NCBI RefSeq assembly: GCF_933775445.1 | Contig: NC_065876.1 | Coordinates: 16,492,001 to 16,556,000 of the forward strand | Source: Argentina anserina | Taxonomy: Eukaryota > Streptophyta > Magnoliopsida > Rosales > Rosaceae | Length of the DNA: 64,000 bases | Reading direction: 5' to 3' | In this document: positions 6,411 through 61,962 of the stretch, piece by piece | How the letters are laid out: every line of letters begins with the position of its first letter | How positions within the stretch are numbered: position 1 is the stretch's first letter | Notes under the pieces: generated by a model | Told to the model about the DNA's origin: nothing | The model's database searches: none | What the model saw: the letters and a program-made list of their open reading frames with translations, nothing else | Position numbers and translations under genes: made by a program

Positions 6411-7115
6411 GTCTGTGTTATATCTCAGATTGTTTCTGGGTTTCTGCTTCAGAATCTCACATTGATAAGGCTGCCTTGTGGTTTCTATTCATTACTCAAG
6501 TAGAGACTTGATTGTTCGCTCTAAAAATCTGATAATCTAGTTGGGTTTTCTTTGGGTTTTCCTCCTAACGTTTCTTTGCGACTGTAAGGAATGGAACTGG
6601 GTTCATTTTATTTGTGTGGTCTGTGCTTGAATTCCGGAATTAGCTTTCTCCTATGGTTTTGGCTTTTCTTTTTGGTACATTGTTTTGTTAATTCATCAGG
6701 CATTTAGTTTACTTGAGTTTACTTTCTTTAACAAACTTCAATGTTATGAATTTGTGAATCTCTATTGAAAAACTCATACCAGTTCTGTTTAAGTCATACT
6801 AACCACATTGTCCACATAGGAAGATTCATGTATATAAAATGTAAGCTTTTGCAATTTGCTAATATGCAATCTATCCATAAATCCTTAGTGGATTCTACCT
6901 GCATCGAGATTATCTGAGCTCTCATTATTTTTAAAGAGATTCTCTTATGCTGTCTGAATACACAAAATATTACAAGAGGAAGTGTGTGTGTATAGCTATA
7001 AATTTGGAAGAAACTGTAGAAAGGACATTAGATTTGTTTACTAATTTGGCGTTATATGTTTTTTTTTTGTTTACATTCTCCATGATCTTATTGATTATTT
7101 TGAAACCCATTTCAG
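6411..7115 (+). other. Probable 5'-UTR intron of RPS9
   Basis: Preceded by GCGGCTTCAG|GTCTG and ended by CCCATTTCAG|GTTCG, T-rich throughout, about 705 bp. The first ATG after the acceptor with a long frame is the RPS9 start 67 bases on. Leader introns are common in plant ribosomal-protein genes. Inferred from splice motifs only. Confidence 0.55.
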
Positions 7116-7181
7116 GTTCGTCGTACTCTGCTGAGGGATTGCAGAACGAATTCCTTAGAACGCTATTGAGATCAGGGCAAG

Positions 7182-8151
7182 ATGACAACTTCCATGCTAG
7201 CTCTTACATCCTCCCTCGCTTCCCTCTCATTTTCATCCAATGTAGCTCAGAAACCTACAACTGTTTCATTTCCTCGTGCCAAATCTGCCTCAGTTACAAA
7301 CATATGTGGAACTCCTAGCCGTATGCCTCGGCTTGTTGTGTCTGCCACCGTAGCTTCTCCGGAAGTGGAGACAGTGAACCTCAAGAAATATGTTAAATCA
7401 AGGCTTCCTGGTGGGTTTGCAGCGCAGACAATCATTGGCACTGGTCGGCGAAAGTGTGCAATTGCCCGTGTTGTGCTCCAAGAGGGCACTGGCAAAGTTT
7501 TAATCAACTATCGTGATGCCAAGGTATTTTTCCATACTCTTTATCTCTGGCACTTTTAATTAGGGTTTCCAATTTGTTTTATGTTCATTCATTTAAATGC
7601 ACAATGTTCTTAATGCTGGTTTTTCATTGCTTGCAGACATTATTGTTTAATTATACCTTTTTTTTTCAAAGCAAAAAACAAAAACTTGCCTACTTGTAAA
7701 TACCAATGATTTCTATTAAGTTAGCCATTTGCTACCTGTGAACAATTTTCATGCATAGGGATGGATTTCTGTTTTTATTTGGTGCGTACTCTGTCACTTT
7801 ATCCTGTGAAGTCTTATTGTTTTACTTTTGTGTGTTTATTGTGTTACTTTTAATGTTGTGTAGGAATATCTTCAAGGCAATCCATTGTGGTTACAATATG
7901 TCAAAATTCCATTGGTCACTTTGGGATATGAAAGTAACTATGATGTGTTTGTCAAGGCTCATGGTGGTGGCCTTTCTGGTCAAGCTCAAGCTATATCGCT
8001 TGGCATTGCTCGAGCATTGCTTAAGGTAAGTGAGGACCACAGAAGACCTCTGAGAAAGGAAGGTCTGCTAACCAGGGACTCCAGAGTTGTTGAGAGGAAG
8101 AAACCTGGTTTGAAGAAAGCTCGCAAAGCCCCCCAGTTTTCAAAGCGTTGA
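7182..8151 (+). CDS. RPS9: Chloroplast 30S ribosomal protein S9
   Basis: Nuclear gene for the plastid small-subunit protein uS9. Two exons, 7182-7523 and 7864-8151, join in phase 0 (AAG|GTATTT ... TAG|GAATAT) to give 209 residues, close to what I recall for the Arabidopsis protein. Residues 1 to about 55 are Ser/Thr/Ala-rich without acidic residues, as in a chloroplast transit peptide. The uS9 core follows, with [12 protein letters not shown] near residues 86-97 and the basic tail [12 protein letters not shown], whose final Lys-Arg reaches the ribosomal P site in the bacterial protein. A 5'-UTR intron is likely: donor at 6411 (TTCAG|GTCTGT) and acceptor at 7115 (TTTCAG|GTTCGT), placing transcription start near 6350. 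No lesions were seen. Confidence 0.93.
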
Positions 8152-8699
8152 TTTGGTGGTTTAAGTAGTCTTTTCTGATTTTTTGTTTTTTGTTTTTGTA
8201 ATAGCTTCTCCATTCATCAGAGATCTTGACTTTGATTGTAAATTCAGTTGAAAATTCATATGTTTGGGCCTCTGAAGTTCTAGATTGATTTAGGCTCCAT
8301 ATACAGGTCCAAATTCTGTTGAGAAAACTTTTGATTTAGGCTCCTGAAGTTGCATGTACAACCCAAACATATGATGGTTTATCAAGTAAATGTGAAATTG
8401 CAGTGCTTCCGTGCGCATAGTATTAGATATCTCAGTCCTATCTCTGGTACTCGTTCGGAAAATGTTGTTCTTATCTAATAGATATTCGAGTTTGAATGTT
8501 GCACGAGTTGTACATATCCTATTACTTGAACGTAGCTACACAGCTAGACAAGGGCATACTGCGATTGCATTAGCGCAACGGTGCAACACTGCAACCTGAG
8601 CATAACTACACGGCTAAACAGGTGCATATTGAGGTTTGCTTGTTGCAACCTCGGCCTCTACTCGTCGTAACACGGCGTGTTTAAAATTAAAATTTCTTC

Positions 8700-8990
8700 C
8701 CTATAACTCAATTGCTATGACCATGAACATTAATCAATATTCCTCATTTTGTTGTAGGAGAATCATCTCATATCCATTTTTGGTGTATCTTGTCCTAATT
8801 AGTATAGCCTAACTAGTTAAGTAACGTTATATTATTCCTGATTCATCGAGATATTTGATGTAATGCATATATATAAGACCATATGTATATCAATAAAATT
8901 ACAGTTATTTTCTCGAATTCATTCTATTGTTTCACGTTATCAAGCACGTAGCTTTAGCCCTGAACATCCTAGGCCTAGAACCCGAAAAAA
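8700..8990 (+). mobile_element. Copia LTR and primer-binding-site remnant
   Basis: The stretch ends with TATATAAG, ATCAATAAAATTACAG, TTCTCGAATTCATTC and CACGTTATCAAGCACG. This order (TATA, polyadenylation region, LTR end, tRNA-like binding site CACGTTATCAGCACG) is familiar from plant Copia elements. The left limit is not defined and no pol coding is attached. Confidence 0.4.
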
Positions 8991-9637
8991 TTCATCAATG
9001 TTTTGACGGACAAAAGAGATGCACATTTCTAAATCTTCGGAAGGAAGCCAATGGGTGCCCATTATTTTGGAAAAAAAAAAAGCTAAACGAATGAGAGAGG
9101 AGATGTAGGAAGATGTGAAATTTGTTGTGCACAAATTGGTGCGAGTTGATCAAATATTGAAGTAGTATTTATAGGCAAATTTTTTAGAGAGTTTTGAAAT
9201 TTTTGGGATTTTTTTAACTTATATCCGTTCTGATCAAATAGTCATAGTTGCCTATTAATTCTAACCGTTTGATCGAAATTTCTGATTCAAAATGGCAGGC
9301 CCAGATCTATTAAACCGTTGGCCCATTCGGTAAGCCATGTGTCAGCCATTTATTAGCTCGTTAATTTTTTTTATCTTTTACTGATGCACGCGCCTAACAG
9401 AAAAAAAATTTAAACGCGCATGATGTCACCCACGTGTTGTTGGCTCCGCCAGGCGGTCGCGCAATCGCCGGAGCAAAGTTTGCTCAAGTGGAGGGACGAG
9501 TAAATCGTTCCGGTTGACTGAACGAGCAAATCTCGTCCGGTGCGAGATCGGAAATGGGTTTGCTCGAGCAAACCTCTCGATTCCAGTCGGTGCCCGAGCA
9601 CCACCACCTCTTTTACTAGCCGGTGGGGGTGCTCTAA
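8990..9637 (-). mobile_element. Truncated PIF/Harbinger element end with ORF1 start
   Basis: Read on the minus strand, the right edge TTAGAGCACCCCCACCGG looks like a Harbinger terminus next to a TAA target site. It is followed by a GC-rich subterminal region, a TATA-like CTATAAATACTAC near 9160, an AT-rich leader and an ATG at 9062. The peptide begins MGTHWLPSEDLEMCISF, resembling the Myb/trihelix-like ORF1 start of plant Harbinger elements. The frame is cut after about 25 residues at the junction with the Copia remnant. The layout parallels the larger element at 49.8-54.5 kb. Confidence 0.45.
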
Positions 9638-54242: not shown

Positions 54243-54670
54243 TACATAAATAATTAAAGAGAACCGAAGATAAAGATTATTTAAGAGGGGGTGGGAACTA
54301 ATAATTGGAGTGTATGAGAGGTGTTTGTGAATTTTTGAATATGAATGTGAGAAAACAATATTTAAAGAAGAATTGAATAGGATATGATCAGATAAGATAT
54401 GACATGTGACAGACGAACATAAAACTGTAATTTGGATAACCAATTACAATATGACACTGTTGGGCAAAAATGTGTAGAGAATATACCTAACATAATTTCG
54501 TCCTATTTCATTTATTTGGAAATAAAACTTTTTGTTATGTTGTGTTCGATCCATTCAAGACAATTATGTCTTTTAATTACAACTCCTTATTTAAAGAAGT
54601 AAACCCTTTGATTCAGAATATGACGAAAATAACGAATGAAAAATGTGTGTGTGTGTGTTTGTTTTTGTGG
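54243..54670. other. Harbinger subterminal DNA and flank
   Basis: AT-rich upstream region of the minus-strand transposase followed, after about 54465, by DNA that leads into the PMD-bearing element. A short (GT)n run lies at 54644-54660. No gene. Confidence 0.5.
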
Positions 54671-54735
54671 CTGCACCCAAAAAATAAACGGGCTGCCTAC
54701 GTACCCTGCGAGAGGGATCAAGCCACTCGTAGTTC
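54671..54735 (+). repeat. Double-hairpin motif, copy 1
   Basis: First of five related units: a variable stem (GCACCC ... GGGCTGC, imperfect), then the invariant TGCCTACGTACCC, a 6-8-nt loop, GGGATCAAGCC and CGTAGTTC. CTACG pairs with CGTAG and CCC with GGG. Confidence 0.75.
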
Positions 54736-55037
54736 TAGAATTCCAATGCGTGAATGACACAGTGAAAGGCTATGATTTTGGAATGATATTTGTATTTGGG
54801 ACCAATTTGGTGCAAGTGAACCAGGGATTGGATTTTGTGTTTGGGATATGGGTTTAAAGCCCATGGATTTGATTTGGATTTGATTTGTGATTTGGGAGTG
54901 GATATGATTTTCTGGTGTTTGATGAATGTGACTACAGTCAGTGATTCATTTGGGACTAGCCGAATTTAACTGGTGGTGTCAGAGATTCTGTTTGGGCGAA
55001 TTTGACTGGTGGTCAGGGATTCTATTTGGACATGTGG

Positions 55038-55100
55038 TTGCACCTAGTGGGCCGCTAGATTGCCTACGTACCCTTTGCGGGATCAAACCGACCGTAGTTC
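55038..55100 (+). repeat. Double-hairpin motif, copy 2
   Basis: ACCTAG ... CTAGAT can pair in five of six positions, followed by TGCCTACGTACCC, GGGATCAAACC and CGTAGTTC. Lies 250 bp before a TATA-like box upstream of the PMD gene. Confidence 0.75.
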
Positions 55101-55346
55101 ATTAAAAGTCCGTTTGGATTCTTTAACGAAACATTGAAACTGGGCCTAAAGCTTTAAGTGGGCCTTGTACAACCCATAGTCTTGCTCCATGTCGAAAACT
55201 CTCTGTCAGAAGTTAATTCCATTTTTTAAATTGCTATAACTCCAATGCTTCTGAAAGACTGAGAGAGAATATCGCCTCTCATTTGATCAAATTGATTGAA
55301 GGAGATTGAATTCGACTTGGAGATGGAGTCATCATATAGGACTCTC

Positions 55347-55353
55347 TATAAAT
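55347..55353 (+). promoter_or_regulatory. Candidate TATA box of the PMD gene
   Basis: CTCTATAAATGG, followed 85 bp later by a good donor (TTTTCG|GTGAGT, 55434) that could begin a leader intron with a later acceptor such as TGTGCAG|GC near 55966 or TTTGTTAG|GAC at 56976. Inferred from motifs only. Confidence 0.35.
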
Positions 55354-56137
55354 GGATAGAAATCCTCACTGATTCCCCACTTCTTCTGATCACGCATACG
55401 TGACTAGGTTTCAGTGCTATCTGAGAATTTTCGGTGAGTGCTGATTCCTCTATGTATTTTAAGATCGCCAACTCACATAATAAGGAATCTGTCTTTTGTG
55501 TGAAAATTATGTATGTCAAGCTGGGTGTGTACTACCCCAAGGCTGCCACCATATGATTCAGATATCAATCTCTGACCGCTTAAGCACCTGATTACATTTG
55601 TAGGACTTGAGTACCAATTCAACTTTCTACCGCTTGATTTCCTTGTGGATCTTTAATTGAAACCTTGTCTCATGTACACAACTCAAGTCCCTACCTCTTC
55701 ATCATCACGGTTTCACATAAAAAGATTTCTTTTCAAACTTCAAGTACCCACACCTTTCGTCCTTTCATCCTCAATCCCAACTATTACCTTAGTTAAATAA
55801 ATCTGTCACATATCAATCTGTTTGTCAGCAGACAGCACCGCTTAGCACCATTCCACCTATCCATCACAATTTTGATTTGCCTTCTTTCAAATATTGTTAA
55901 TTGAACCAGTACATCCATAGTCGAGGAATGAATTCAATGTATTAATAACATGTCTCTGATGTGCAGGCTTTATCAAGACCTTGACATTTGAAGTCAAAAT
56001 TGAAGGTGAGACCCTGGTCACTATACTCGACAATATTCAGTGTGGTGGTTTCTTCCTCTCTCTTTCTCTATTTTTTTTGTGGGAAAAGGTAGAACTTTAA
56101 TGATATGTCGATGGTATATTTGACTTGAGGGAATTTT

Positions 56138-56361
56138 TTGTGCTCGAGGGGATTTTTGTGCTCGAGGGGATTTGGTGAGGATGTTTCTGGTGTTTGGTGC
56201 TTGAGGGGATTTGGTGAGGATATGTTTATGACTTTATGGTGCTCAGTGCTTGAGGGGATTTGGCTTGGATATGTTTATGACTTTATGGTGCTCGGTGCTT
56301 GAGGGGATTTGGCTTGGATATGTTTATGGTGCTTGGTGCTTGAGGGGATTTGGCTTGAGAG
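56138..56361 (+). repeat. GC/TTGAGGGG minisatellite
   Basis: Five to six copies of TGCTTGAGGGGATTTGG separated by related spacers (GATATGTTTATGACTTTATG in the best copies), full period about 49 bp with shorter degenerate units at the left. Lies in the presumed leader region of the PMD gene. Confidence 0.85.
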
Positions 56362-56980
56362 GATGCAAAGTCATATTTTGATATAAACTGCACTTATTGA
56401 GAAGTTTAGCAAAGATAAATAGAGATGAAGACGTGAGACCATTGAGAGATGAGATACCTGAAATTGGAACCTCTGGTATTCTTCTAGGTAAGAATAAAAC
56501 TCTTCACTCTACTATTTCACTCCTTTAATGCAAAAAAAATGAATATGCCTTCTTCTCTTTTTTGCTTCACCGTGTGCTCACCTCCCCTCTTTTTTTCTCC
56601 TCCCTTTGTTGTGCAGCTTGTGCTCTTTAAATAGAGGGGCTGAGCAGATATCTACTCATCCAAATTTTGAATTTTCCATGAAGATAGCTATTGAAGATCC
56701 CCATCTTTTGGAAATGATTAACTAACCTATCTTCAATTTGAATTTGGAAATCTCCCGTAACTTTGTTGGTTATGCATTCTGTTGGAAGAGTCAATTACAC
56801 AGTCTTCTTCTGAATTTTGACTCCACCCAAAAACGTTTTGGATATATATTCGTCAACTATTCAATATGTATTTACCTAATCATGTTTTATCATTCAACAG
56901 TTGCCCCCTCAAGCATCGTATATGTAGCTGCCTTACATGTGCGGGGCTTGACCATTAACCTATTTTTTGTTTGTTAGGAC

Positions 56981-59900
56981 ATGAATCAACGTGGAGAGCT
57001 TTATTCTGAACGTGTCTCTGGTAGAGATGGAAGAAAAATCATGAGTGCTCTAGAATATCAGAGGTCTCTTCCACTTAAATCAATCAAACTCACTATGTCA
57101 CTTGAGAGTCGACCGACATGGGCTATTCAGGAAGACCTGCGTTCTGGTTTCCTCAAATTTGATCCTCGTTCAGAAGACCAAGTAATCAAACCATGTCCTA
57201 ATTATGGCAGCTATTTTAAAGCTTGTACTCTGGAGAAAGTCAACAACAATGAAGATGGAGATGACAAGATGATAGTCGGAACTGATTTTTACCCCATAAT
57301 GCACCAGATGTTACAAAAGAAACGAGACTGGGAGAACAATTTTTCATTTCGGGGACGCTCTCTTTTTACCTTCGGTGTATTGGAATGGACTGAAGATGTA
57401 TTGGAGACTTTCAAAGAGACGCTATATGAAGCAGGCATATATGGTGCCATTGCCATATCTCGTTATCCTTATGAGCTTCCGAAGTTTGTTTGGAAGGCAT
57501 TCTGTGAATTATGGGGGCCTTTGTCAAATACACTGCACTTTGCCGACGGTGAAATGGGCATTTCTTTGTATGACTTGAAGGTCATTGGTGGCTTACCAAT
57601 ATCTGGTTTTCCTTATGAGGAATTTTTACCAACCAATACAGATCTGCTACAAGAGCAAGAATATCCTCCAACTGTTTTGGAGCTCTTGCGGATTCATTCC
57701 TCATTATGCACGGAGTATAAATGTCGAGAGATTTATTGGGACCAGTGGCTTGATCATTTTTATCGTGGGGGACTTGTTTATGCTGCTATTGGTGACACAA
57801 AAGCTCTTCCACCAAAGGCGAGGTCGTCTAGATCCCCATTAAAGGTTTCAAGAGAGGGCAAGCTTGCTGCTTTTCTTGTATTCTGGCTATGCAGGTTTTG
57901 TGCCATTTTTTTTTCATTAATTTTATAGTCTCGTCTTATACGAAACTCTATCATCTAATGACAGCTCTTTTTGACAGGTTTGTCCTTCCAACATGGGATT
58001 CGACAATAAGACCTGAAACCTTCTATATGGCATGCTTAATGGCGACGGGAGTCAAAGTTTCCTTAGCACCAACAACATTGGGGTATATTTATCACTGCCT
58101 TGGGAAAGTAGCTGTCCACCAACTAGGAGAGAAACCTCTAGAGATAGGTCTTCCAATTCACTACGTGATTGGCTGGCTTGGAGAATATTTCCCGCAGACA
58201 TATAGCCGTCGCCCAGACAAAGACTTTGGGGAAGATTATCCACTTCTGGCGAGATATGCTTGTGTTTCAAGTAAAGACCTTTCCATCACTTGTGCTAGAA
58301 TGATTTTTCGAGATAATAAATCTGTGGTATACCGACCTTACACATTTAATGAAGCTGAAGGCCAATTTCTAATTGATGATGAGACTTTATCGAATGAGAA
58401 GTTTGACTTTTTATTGAGTTTACGCTCTGCGTGCCTTCCTGTAAGAGTCGATGGTCAACTGATTTTAGAGCCATATTATCCCAATAGATTTGCTCGTCAA
58501 TTTGGGTATGATCAGAGTGTGCCCTCGAACCGCCTCACTTTTAGCGTTCCAAAGAGAAACCAGTGTTTTGTTGAGGAGTTAGCCAAAGCTCAGATTATTC
58601 TTCACAACAGGAACACTAATGCTCGTTTTTATATCCCGAGATATGCCTATCAGGGGCAATGCACCTGGTGGTATTGTAGATGGTGGTTGAAAGCTTGTAC
58701 GCCATATTTAGGACTTTCGGTGTCAAAGACTTACAAGACCTTTCGAAAGAGATCACCTGAACCCGAACATCGTATCTTTACAATGAACACGCTTGCTGAA
58801 ATTTCCAAAGATTTGAGGGAAATGGTCAAAATCTTGCCTTTACAGCAAAAGATTCATAAATCACCATGTGCTAATAATGGCAAGAACAAACAGCCAAGTG
58901 CCAGCAATAACAAAGATAGCAAGGACAAGCAGCCAATTGATATTCATGTTAAGAGGAATCAACATGTCCCTCTTAAGAAGACTGAAAGTGTCAACAAGAG
59001 TAGTATTCAGATGAGAGGTAACACCCAAAGAACAGTGAAGCAACATGTTCCAAAATTTGAGAGTGTAATCGTCTCTGATCCTTTAGACGATGTTCAAAAC
59101 ATCAATCTGACTGAAAGTGACTCCAGTTCCAGTTTTGTTCTTCCAAAAGCAAAACTTATATCTCAGCCTTCGAAGAGAAAACGTGAAGAGAGCTCAAATA
59201 AAACCTGTACTCAAAAGACTCAGAAAACTATGGAGAATGATGTTAAGAAGGTAATCCAAAATGCAGGTGAATTGATAAACCTTCTTCTTCCAGGTGTCTT
59301 CCGAATGATGATGATGTAGAGAAGGTTCTATCATCTGTGCTTGATCCTACATTGGCCACATTCACGAAGGACTATATTGTTGGGCACGTGAGAAATATCT
59401 TTGTGAAAGCTTCTTCTTCAACAGTACCGAAAGATTTGCTAACTCATGTTGAAGATATCAAATTATCCTTGACTTTACTACGTCCAGTCCTTCTGATATT
59501 GAAATCTGGTAAATCTTTACTCGAGAATTTTATGACCTCCATTGATGATATGCTGAAAGTAGCAGTTGAAACTTCTAGAGCTATGTCACTTCTTCAAGCG
59601 AACACAGGAGTTGATGTGGAATTTGCCTGTGATCTGATTTCTGACTATGAACGATGCATGAAGGTCAAAGAGGACTTAACTTCTCGGTTGGCTAAATCTT
59701 CTGCGATACTCAACGATTTGCAAGCTGCGGAGCTTGATATTATATCTGAAGAGAAACGTGTTGAGAAGAGACGCCAGAAGCATAATTCCGAGAAAGCAGC
59801 TGCTGAGGAGACCGCTGCTCTTTTAAGGAAATCCATCCAGGAGCAAGAGGATGAGGGCCAGTTGATTTTAAAGGAGAAGTCTGCTTGCATGAAAGAGGAA

Positions 59901-59999
59901 CTTCCAGAGATTGAGAAAGTTATTTCTTCAAACAACGTGGAGACGAAGAAGTATCAACAATCATTTGATTTCGTCCTGTCGCTTTTTTTCGTTGAGTAG
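56981..59999 (+). CDS. Plant mobile domain (PMD) protein, retrotransposon-borne
   Basis: Exon 1 56981-57894 and exon 2 from 57978 join in phase (TGC AG|G TTT; CTGGCTATGCAG|GTTTTG ... TTGACAG|GTTTG). The PMD (residues about 60-560) is recognisable from RGRSLFTFGVLEW, GPLSNTLHFADGEMGISLYD, LKVIGGLPISGFPYEEF, KVSREGKLAAFLVFWLCRF and YFPQTYSRRP. A Lys/Ser-rich linker follows. Near 59270 the frame shifts by one base (a stop then follows at 59317-59319), after which the next frame continues to TAA/TAG at 59999 with PNDDDVEKVLSSVLDPTLA and a long charged coiled coil (about 59640-59930). A single-base deletion is the simplest reading. PMD proteins are known both as host silencing and genome-stability factors (MAIL1/MAIN) and as cargo of transposons; here the antisense Gypsy pol and flanking repeats favour the latter. 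Its molecular activity is unknown. Confidence 0.8.
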
Positions 60000-60235
60000 T
60001 TGTTTAGATATCCCTTTCGTAATTTTGATGTAGGATCCTTTATTTCTCGTCCTTTCATTGCTTTGCAAAGTTCTCAGACTATTTTTTGAACTTGATTTCA
60101 TTTGTATTTGTTGCTTTTTTTTCCTCATTTCCTCGAATAACATTTTGATGCAAATGCTTCCTTAATGTCTTCCTTTGCTTATGAATCTGTGATAATTCAC
60201 CACTAAAGAACAAGAAAGAATTTGTTTGAAATTAT

Positions 60236-60300
60236 GACTGGATCTGGTGGTAACCAGACTGCCTACGTACCCAATTACGGGATCAAGTCAATCGTAGTTC
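60236..60300 (+). repeat. Double-hairpin motif, copy 3
   Basis: Stem TCTGGT/ACCAGA with loop GGTA, then TGCCTACGTACCC, GGGATCAAGTC and CGTAGTTC. Followed by CCTGATTGATTCAGG, itself a third 5-bp hairpin. Confidence 0.85.
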
Positions 60301-60346
60301 GCCTGATTGATTCAGGAAAGGAGTGGATTTTGGGATTTTTTTTTGC

Positions 60347-60411
60347 GACTGTACCTAGATAAAACTAGGTTGCCTACGTACCCAATAAAGGGATCAAGCC
60401 ACACGTAGTTC
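60347..60411 (+). repeat. Double-hairpin motif, copy 4
   Basis: Stem ACCTAG/CTAGGT with loop ATAAAA, then TGCCTACGTACCC, GGGATCAAGCC and CGTAGTTC, again followed by CCTGATTGATTCAGG. Confidence 0.85.
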
Positions 60412-60445
60412 ACCTGATTGATTCAGGAAAAACTTTTGGGATGGG

Positions 60446-60514
60446 GTGACTGCATCTAACTTTTGGAGTTAGACTACCTACGTACCCGATGAAGGGATCA
60501 AGCCGTCGTAGTTC
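60446..60514 (+). repeat. Double-hairpin motif, copy 5
   Basis: Stem TCTAAC/GTTAGA with a 7-nt loop, then ACCTACGTACCC, GGGATCAAGCC and CGTAGTTC. Ends 68 bp before the 3' end of the minus-strand pol. Confidence 0.85.
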
Positions 60515-60581: not shown

Positions 60582-61962
60582 TCATATATAGAACTTTTTG
60601 ACAAACTTTCCGTTTACACAAGCATAGACACAATCTCCATTCTCATTTGAAAGTTCGTATGCCCCTTTAGTGAAGACTTTGGTGATGACATAGGGTCCCT
60701 CCCATTTCGGCTCGAATTTCCCTTTGGACTTTCTGGTGATAACGATGGGTCTTCGTATTGTCAGAACTAAGTCCCCGATTCTGAAAGATCTGAACTTAAC
60801 TCTTTTATTGAAAGCGCCTGCTACCTGTGCTTGGTAAATCTCGAGCTTTTGTTGAACCGCGAGTCGTTTTTCATCAAGGGCTTCCAATTCAGCAAGTCTT
60901 ACTCTCGTATTTTCATCTGGATTATCAAGCTGAATAGCTATGCTTAATGATGGTAATTGGATCTCAAGTGGTAACACTGCTTCGGACCCGTATACCAAAT
61001 TATATGGGGTACATCCTGTTGCTGTACGAACCGTAGTTCTGTAGGCCCATAATGCTTCAGGTAGACGTTCGTGCCAATCTCATTTTTTTTTAGACCATTT
61101 TTTTTAGGATGTTGCCAAGCACTTTATTGAAAGCTTTCGCTTGCCCATTCGATGTAGGATTGTAGCTTGCAGAAAATGCATGCTGAATATGGTATTTTTC
61201 ACACAATCGAACCATGGCCTTGCATTTGAAATATGAGGCATTGTCTGAGACTATTTTTGAAGGAACACCGAAACGATAGATGATATGGTTTCGGATAAAA
61301 TCTGCAACATCTTCTGCCTTCACTGTCTTTAAAGGAATCGCTTCAGACCACTTAGAGAAATTATCAGTCGCAGCCAATATATATTGGTGTAGTCGTCATG
61401 ATTTAGGGTTTATGGCACCTATGACATCTAATCCCCATGTTTCAAAAGGATACGACAAAATGGAAGGGTGAAGAGGTAATGGAGGTTGGTGTATAAAATC
61501 CCCATGTAGTTGGCATGATTTACAGGCTTTGGCACAATCTATTGAATCTTGTACCATGGTTGGCCAGTAATAGCCTATTCTCTTCAACTGAGCTATGAGC
61601 TTTGGGCCGGCCTGGTGAGCTCCACAAATTCTTGCATGAGTATCATTAAGAGCTTGAGTTGCCTCCTCTTTCGATAAACATCTTAGAAGTACTCCATCAA
61701 AAGATCTACGGTACAAGGTGTCGTTTAAATATACGAATCGAAAGGAAGTCCGTCTCACATATGCTCTTTTTCTTGGATCACTGGGCAGTTTCCCCCTTTG
61801 ACAATAGTCAATCATGCTCTTTCGCCAATCAAATTCCTCTTCAACCTTGAATACTGTGACTGCATAGGTTTCTTGAACTTCATCCATTCTCTCAAGTGCA
61901 TAAGGCAATAATTGACGTTCCCCAACTGTGATCTGGACATCTCTCTCATCTGGTAAAGTTAG
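60582..61962 (-). pseudogene. Ty3/Gypsy integrase region, 5'-truncated
   Basis: The minus strand encodes, in order, the RNase H/integrase connector, the HHCC zinc finger (DTHARICGAHQAG ... CAKACKSC), and the catalytic core with the first Asp (GLDVIGAI), the second (IVSDNASYF) and SNGQAKAFNK. The third catalytic residue, normally Glu in GQAEA, is Lys here. A C-terminal chromatin-type region follows (VYGSEAVLPLEI ... GPYVITKVF), ending at 60582. A TGA interrupts the core near 61396 and an A-run near 61085 shifts the frame before DWHERLPEALWAYRT. Gag, protease and reverse transcriptase are absent; the upstream end is cut by another LTR element at 61963. Confidence 0.9.

Follow-up and report, generated by a model that had tools for sequence, protein, structure and literature searches.

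A folded sequence module shared by LTR retrotransposon families of Argentina anserina, a candidate signal of their genomic RNA

Results

Five motif copies in and beside an LTR

We analyzed a 64,000-nt stretch of the Argentina anserina genome (NC_065876.1, positions 16,492,001 to 16,556,000 of the forward strand; hereafter the window), in which a short structured motif accompanies a 19.2-kb Ogre/Tat-type Ty3 long terminal repeat (LTR) retrotransposon. A first-pass annotation had reported five copies of a two-hairpin motif, each a variable stem followed by a constant hairpin, all oriented like a PMD gene, two before it and three after it. All five were confirmed on the + strand (the motif strand below), with cores at 54694, 55061, 60260, 60371 and 60475. 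They are real and beyond chance: a 13-mer with up to two mismatches matched the window five times, compared with a mean of 0.29 in 100 dinucleotide shuffles, none of which reached five. As had been claimed, the variable stem P1 is perfectly complementary in copies 3 to 5 (TCTGGT/ACCAGA, ACCTAG/CTAGGT and TCTAAC/GTTAGA, respectively) and imperfect in copies 1 and 2.

54667..54735, + strand: motif copy 1, an LTR copy lying about 209 nt inside the end on the primer binding site (PBS) side, U5 in element sense; P1 imperfect
55034..55100, + strand: motif copy 2, likewise within the LTR, at a distance of about 578 nt from the PBS-side end; a single C-A mismatch in P1
60234..60300, + strand: motif copy 3, in the interval from the PMD stop to the end of pol; the outer helix P0 has A-U where most copies have G-C
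60345..60411, + strand: motif copy 4, between the PMD stop and the end of pol
60446..60514, + strand: motif copy 5, separated by 67 nt from where the integrase reading frame ends

The layout around the PMD gene stands with a different meaning: two copies are LTR sequence and three follow pol. pol and the PMD gene converge, and copies 3 to 5 occupy the interval between their ends, just past the pol end and, along the PMD strand, 235-515 nt beyond the last PMD-region stop. Copies 1 and 2 had been located without the LTR around them being recognized; because they are LTR sequence, they are present twice per element, the second time beyond the window.

The element to which the copies belong has the minus strand as its sense. 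Its second LTR, at window-equivalent positions 71193-73628 (beyond the window), is 99.26% identical over 2443 bp to 54458-56900, a GACAC target-site duplication flanks both outer LTR ends, and, on the minus strand, a PBS-like TGGCGACTCCGCTGGGGA is found next to the right LTR. The region between the LTRs encodes, also on the minus strand, gag, reverse transcriptase, RNase H, a second RNase H and integrase (PF03732, PF00078, PF17917, PF13456 and PF17921). Assignment to Ogre/Tat follows from this single-strand gag-pol set, the LTR pair with its target-site duplication, and a PMD open reading frame (ORF) between pol and the 3' LTR. The element is like Ogre elements with PMD (Tat clade, Ty3/gypsy) in having PMD in an additional ORF, a second RNase H before integrase and a very large size; according to PMC6317226, 57% of Ogre elements have PMD, and Ogre and Retand both carry a second RNase H placed between RNase H and integrase.

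54458..56900, − strand: 3' LTR of the Ogre/Tat-type element, with motif copies 1 and 2; from identity to the second LTR
56981..59319, + strand: PMD gene (additional antisense ORF); PF10536, E 8.6e-10 and 3.6e-22, in two overlapping ORFs
59337..59999, + strand: 220-aa ORF, placed as the C-terminal part of the PMD gene would be; tblastn, no Pfam family
60582..61908, − strand: pol end, with the integrase zinc-binding and C-terminal parts in two separate ORFs; PF17921, E 8.8e-8, and PF24626, E 1.7e-4 (a match below the cut-off of that family)

The PMD gene (PF10536) is antisense to pol. Intron-like breaks (GT...AG, read by eye) separate its reading frames at 57895-57978 and at about 59250-59300, the first of them probably an intron. 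The gene thus seems to keep its introns, as expected because it is antisense to genomic RNA. For the 220-aa ORF, a Pfam scan gave no family; its tblastn matches adjoin the PMD match in locus L027 and, at 25% identity, in L044 (L numbers denote loci outside the window). Upstream of the PMD gene, the LTR has a TATA box (CTATAAATGG) at 55347 on the + strand, antisense to the element, as a candidate antisense promoter of that gene. The same LTR holds five direct repeats of 49 nt with a spacing of 39-49 nt (TTGAGGGGATTTGG...) at 56145-56371.

Occurrence across the genome

We searched the genome (237 Mb, 146 contigs) with patterns whose match sets overlap one another. The exact 13-mer gave 163 matches vs 2 for its reversed control. 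Pattern TACCC..GGGATCAAGCC gave 101 vs 0, ..AAACC gave 42 vs 0, and two further patterns gave 6 vs 0 and 18 vs 0; with P2 left free there were 93 matches vs 0, and with P3 left free 359 vs 46. A sequence-only profile matched 121 times in 99 sources and 92 times in another, overlapping set of 60 sources, while viral contigs searched with one pattern gave 0 matches. The alignment set comprised 129 distinct copies of at least 68 bases, or 147 once 18 short loci were added. The module is genome-wide, in several different retrotransposon families, and is conserved where the LTR flanks diverge past alignment. LTRs of other eudicots may hold sequences like it.

Four groups of carriers were distinguished. 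Elements of the Ogre/PMD type form the first, each LTR holding two or three copies (window, L031, L043) and further copies lying beside the integrase end (window, L020, L044). The second has LTRs starting TGAGACGACC, a TGGTATCAGAGC PBS in three loci and about 4.8 kb between its LTRs. The window PMD, gag and pol proteins, used as queries, found no credible match in it, and it is apparently a non-autonomous LTR family. An LTR end with adjoining PBS is present at L012/L138, L023/L139 and L042; at the other listed loci of the TGAGACGACC family no PBS adjoins the LTR end, as for a 3' or solo LTR. We rejected the idea that this group is a short dispersed 160-bp unit with clean ends, since its left edge is the LTR end TGAGACGACC. 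Between L138 and L139, the larger common pieces are 84-95% identical. A third group comprises L002, L062, L078 and others. Beside the L002/L105/L106/L107 family, a coding reading was rejected, with no credible Pfam family and frames of low complexity. The fourth comprises 16 of the 18 loci of a further set, whose better-kept copies have the P3 stem TCCTTC/GAAGGA in place of CCC/GGG. One of its members, L158, has an integrase C-terminus 51% identical to that of the window element, with the motif directly after it, so the post-pol position is conserved between the two; the 3.2 kb read of this element held no PMD match. Besides the window, an Ogre/Tat-like integrase adjoins the motif in three loci (L020, L044 and L158).

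Repeats of other kinds were seen at three of the loci. L158 has a tandem repeat of about 116 bp (reverse complement, 1037-1393) on the motif side facing away from pol, and short-period direct repeats adjoin the motif copy in L011 (711-1167). In L041, positions 1-1972 and 7029-9000 are a 100% identical repeat, 7028 bp apart, from a recent duplication or an assembly artefact.

The first-pass annotation had named a retrotransposon as one possible bearer of the motif, which proved right, and had also tied the motif to the PMD gene, which was not supported. Because the module is present where a PMD match is absent (group 2; the 3.2 kb of L158), we rejected a PMD role as a general explanation. A related possibility is that it acts on the antisense strand, as a 3' UTR or promoter-proximal structure of a PMD transcript started at the + strand TATA box of the left LTR. 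The position of copies 3 to 5 downstream of the last PMD-region stop and the box at 55347 fit such a role. Copies 1 and 2, however, lie upstream of that box, the sense strand folds slightly better, and the non-autonomous family and L158 carry the module with no PMD match, so that we regard this role as distinctly unlikely.

Direction and position in the elements

We took direction from the integrase strand or from a PBS adjoining an LTR end. The motif is antisense to the element in 7/7 loci counted: the window (LTR/PBS and domains), L044, L020 and L158 (integrase), and L042, L138 and L139 (PBS). L028, where the integrase match is weak (27% identity), lies opposite to the motif and is ill placed, was left out of the count. 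Read along the element, the motif is thus part of U5 and, in elements of Ogre type, is met once more immediately downstream of pol.

For the non-autonomous family, we examined 31 rows chosen by a loose flank test; they include some duplicate retrievals of a single place and two Ogre-type loci, L043 and L137. In 13 of these rows, the motif is preceded by a sense TATA box at a distance of 810-893 nt; in two more the distance is 1084 and 1355 nt, and the remainder have none or others. In L138, the LTR end and PBS follow within about 130 nt after the motif. Given the upstream sense TATA box and the nearby LTR end and PBS, the motif should lie in the transcribed leader of this family.

Position also bears on the main rival explanation, a nuclear-export or anti-splicing element whose structured copies, mainly post-pol, would let long unspliced sense RNA exit the nucleus. 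Some simple retroviruses have post-coding transport elements for unspliced RNA. Consistent with such a function, tandem copies follow pol in the window and the motif adjoins the integrase end in L044, L020 and L158; Ogre RNA is reportedly spliced between ORFs (PMC3735527, available portion). The module is also present in U5, however, and L138 and L139, read from LTR to LTR, yielded LTR copies only (pattern with up to two mismatches). The likeness to retroviral transport elements is, moreover, an analogy, and we consider an export function unlikely.

The fold

On the motif strand, the 5'-3' order is the P0 5' strand (GUGGYU), the P1 hairpin, the P2 5' strand (CUACG), the P3 hairpin, the P0 3' strand (ARCCAY) and the P2 3' strand (CGUAG), with linkers UA and AUCA conserved in most copies. 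P1 is the variable stem, and P2 and P3 form the constant hairpin, where P3 is CCC/GGG plus an extension. The fold is richer than the first-pass annotation had described, which had missed the outer helix P0, detected by RNAalifold, in which the GTGGYT flank pairs with ARCCAY inside the part described as constant. Because P0 and P2 cross, the module is either a pseudoknot or two alternative folds, and the two helices may form together. Energy minima include P0+P1+P3 (L028) and P1+P2+P3 (window copy 4), among others.

A named RNA family was rejected for lack of a credible Rfam match: a search of 8 kb of the window with E up to 5 gave only four weak snoRNA/lncRNA matches, away from the copies, and a search of six further loci with E up to 1 gave none. 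This result also bears on a self-cleaving ribozyme of the pseudoknot type. HDV-like (delta-type) ribozymes have two crossing helices with a small inner hairpin, a fourth helix, and a catalytic cytosine between the closing strands. The module shares the crossing helices and the small inner hairpin, and its strand order (outer helix, inserted hairpin, second helix, small hairpin, two closing strands) resembles that of nested-pseudoknot ribozymes. Unlike them, its aligned copies have few bases between the closing strands, with no room for a fourth hairpin, and Rfam gave no match to such a family. Tandem intact copies within genomic RNA would, in addition, cut that RNA. We regard a ribozyme as highly improbable.

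Pairing under change

In a helix-level test on the 147 copies, the substitutions of each column were re-placed randomly on the tree (1000 reshuffles), with same-branch double changes from one Watson-Crick pair to another counted as events. P1 had 10 events vs a null of 2.3 and 167 double-changed cells vs 41.7 (both 0/1000), which is helix-level covariation beyond phylogeny. P1 pairing is therefore firmly kept under change, and the first-pass proposal that pairing persists while the stem sequence changes applies genome-wide: the paired share is 86% of cells for P1 and 87% for P0, where a loss of pairing in most copies had been named as evidence against it. P0 (paired fraction 0.874 vs 0.624, 0/1000) and P3 (0.921 vs 0.613, 0/1000; 2 events vs 0.3, 42/1000) support the fold moderately. 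P2 (0.947 vs 0.866, 38/1000) is conserved, with covariation not above null. Paired-fraction tests reward plain conservation too and thus weigh less than double changes, and most copies were fetched by patterns fixing one P2 strand or most of P3, which gave these two helices less scope for variation.

Runs on 109 and 129 copies agreed in outline with the 147-copy result. In slid-helix controls, P0 moved by one column paired in 0.38-0.49 of cells and slid P1 in 0.36-0.44. For the first 13 copies, P1+P2+P3 exceeded the shuffles on four of five measures and the slid controls on paired cells, double-changed cells and score; with 46 distinct copies and P0 added, the outcome was the same, the fifth measure standing at 12/500. 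When P2 was left free (93 matches), most rows retained CTACG and CGTAG, and the changes seen look like decay. When P3 was left free, among the 100 rows listed of the 359 matches, the first pair was C-G in 58, U-A in 29, U-G in 4, C-A in 3 and other in 6, and the second was standard in 89; relatedness links the rows to one another, U-A comes mostly from a single family, and some of the matches may have arisen by chance.

Retention of P2 and the palindromic TACGTA core in most rows even when left free, together with wobble pairs lacking strand bias, would also suit a DNA-level site, a cluster bound by a host or element protein with complementarity arising from half-site symmetry. The two P1 arms, however, change jointly to unrelated sequences, a behavior not required of a site bound as a duplex, making this explanation improbable.

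Discussion

We read the motif as a cis-acting structured module of LTR-retrotransposon genomic RNA, most likely for recognition in packaging or dimerization; this reading is tentative, with a probability of about 0.42. A shared module in the same direction and in matching places, where these are readable, suggests a folded RNA signal of the elements, not a feature of a nearby gene. The element RNA would carry the module as the reverse complement of the motif strand, in U5 of the 5' leader on the PBS side and, in Ogre-type elements, again right after pol. It would fold there into P1, P3 and the crossing P0/P2, as a pseudoknot or as alternative folds, and the fold may be a handle by which genomic RNA is recognized in packaging or dimerization, common to autonomous Ogre-type and non-autonomous elements. 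Direction and position make the sense RNA the presumable acting strand. A role in packaging or dimerization would fit the location in the leader close to the PBS, the tandem arrangement of copies and the presence of the module in an apparently non-autonomous family as well. A more specific proposal, in which a transferable pseudoknot or switch (P0 vs P2) is the common genomic-RNA signal of unrelated LTR-retrotransposon families and non-autonomous elements use Ogre-type machinery, we hold to be doubtful.

Several observations weigh against the packaging or dimerization reading. When each column pair was compared with tree-simulated alignments, a test of the R-scape type that the first-pass annotation had proposed, no pair was significant (the smallest E value, 3.9, belonged to a pair in the P1 loop, and the best pair of a helix reached E 17). 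The negative outcome of this per-pair test is due to the dominance of few founder families, and the covariation claim therefore depends on the helix-level tests. There, the P1 paired fraction alone was 0.864 vs 0.764 (40/1000), and double changes were not above null for P0 (3 events vs 1.3, 139/1000; 62 cells vs 41.2, 129/1000), for P3 cells (20 vs 12.4, 217/1000) or for P2 (1 event vs 0.8, 587/1000; 6 cells vs 20.1, 867/1000). A competing pairing, of the P0 5' strand with the P1 3' arm, also scored (paired fraction 0.909, 7/1000; 53 double-changed cells, 29/1000, but zero same-branch events), and the control with P1 slid by -1 had 4 events (2/1000), although just 36% of its cells paired. The third pair of P3, when that helix was left free, was standard in only 68 of the 100 rows.

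The remaining such points concern stability, strand and place. Folding energies were ordinary vs shuffles (z -1.74 to +0.44 in 12 folds, six copies on both strands), and of 24 representatives, the element-sense strand was the more stable in 17 when P1+P2+P3 was scored and in 14 for P0+P1+P3. G-U and A-C cells were near equal (167 vs 154), and the attempt to derive the acting strand from wobble asymmetry gave no decision. L041 has pol-like DNA on the motif's own strand, at face value an exception to the orientation rule; because no PBS adjoins, we read it as an LTR inserted into older pol. The clear TATA box of the window LTR (55347) is antisense, its sole sense match being weak and near the LTR start, and PBS types differ between carrier families.

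The dominance of few founder families and the failure of the per-pair tests would also be expected from passive hitch-hiking, in which an old module was copied between LTRs by recombination or template switching and its pairing was inherited from founders, not selected. Against this stand P1 exceeding the tree-aware null, conservation of the motif while LTR flanks diverge beyond alignment, and the same orientation and place wherever readable; we rate such inheritance as improbable to much the same degree as a protein-bound DNA site.

Retroviruses have a folded leader element near the PBS for dimerization and packaging. In the available portion of PMC3735527, the parasitic barley family BARE2 has conserved dimerization and packaging signals and is packaged by BARE1. 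The module would resemble the retroviral signals as a folded leader element near the PBS, and its presence in an apparently non-autonomous family may parallel the packaging of BARE2 by its partner; unlike these signals, it is multi-copy, is also found post-pol and is common to families with different PBS. The available portions of PMC6317226, PMC7264820 and PMC11963269 name no conserved folded module, and the main text of PMC11963269 lacks the words "hairpin" and "secondary structure". The repeats in the available part of PMC11963269 occupy the same region as repeated units but are family-specific, while the module is dispersed and common to families. An 82-bp Coffea repeat of Gypsy/TAT 3' ends, cited in that part and known by description only, could be related to the module. 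Searches of the open literature for the motif letters gave no paper on the subject by title among the matches listed. Those on motifs or pseudoknots in plant LTR elements, PMD ORFs, packaging, Ogre splicing and covariation, with subscription papers outside their scope, gave no description of the module by title or abstract start among the matches listed. By word search, the main text of PMC12218528, on new structured RNAs in plants, has no words beginning "transpos" or "LTR".

The module is recognizable by sequence and fold and, where readable, has a fixed place and direction, which makes it a concrete target for studying how these abundant elements mark their RNA. To our knowledge, cis-acting RNA signals have been little described in plant Ty3 elements. 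The sharing of one such module by autonomous and apparently non-autonomous families bears on how parasitic elements are mobilized.

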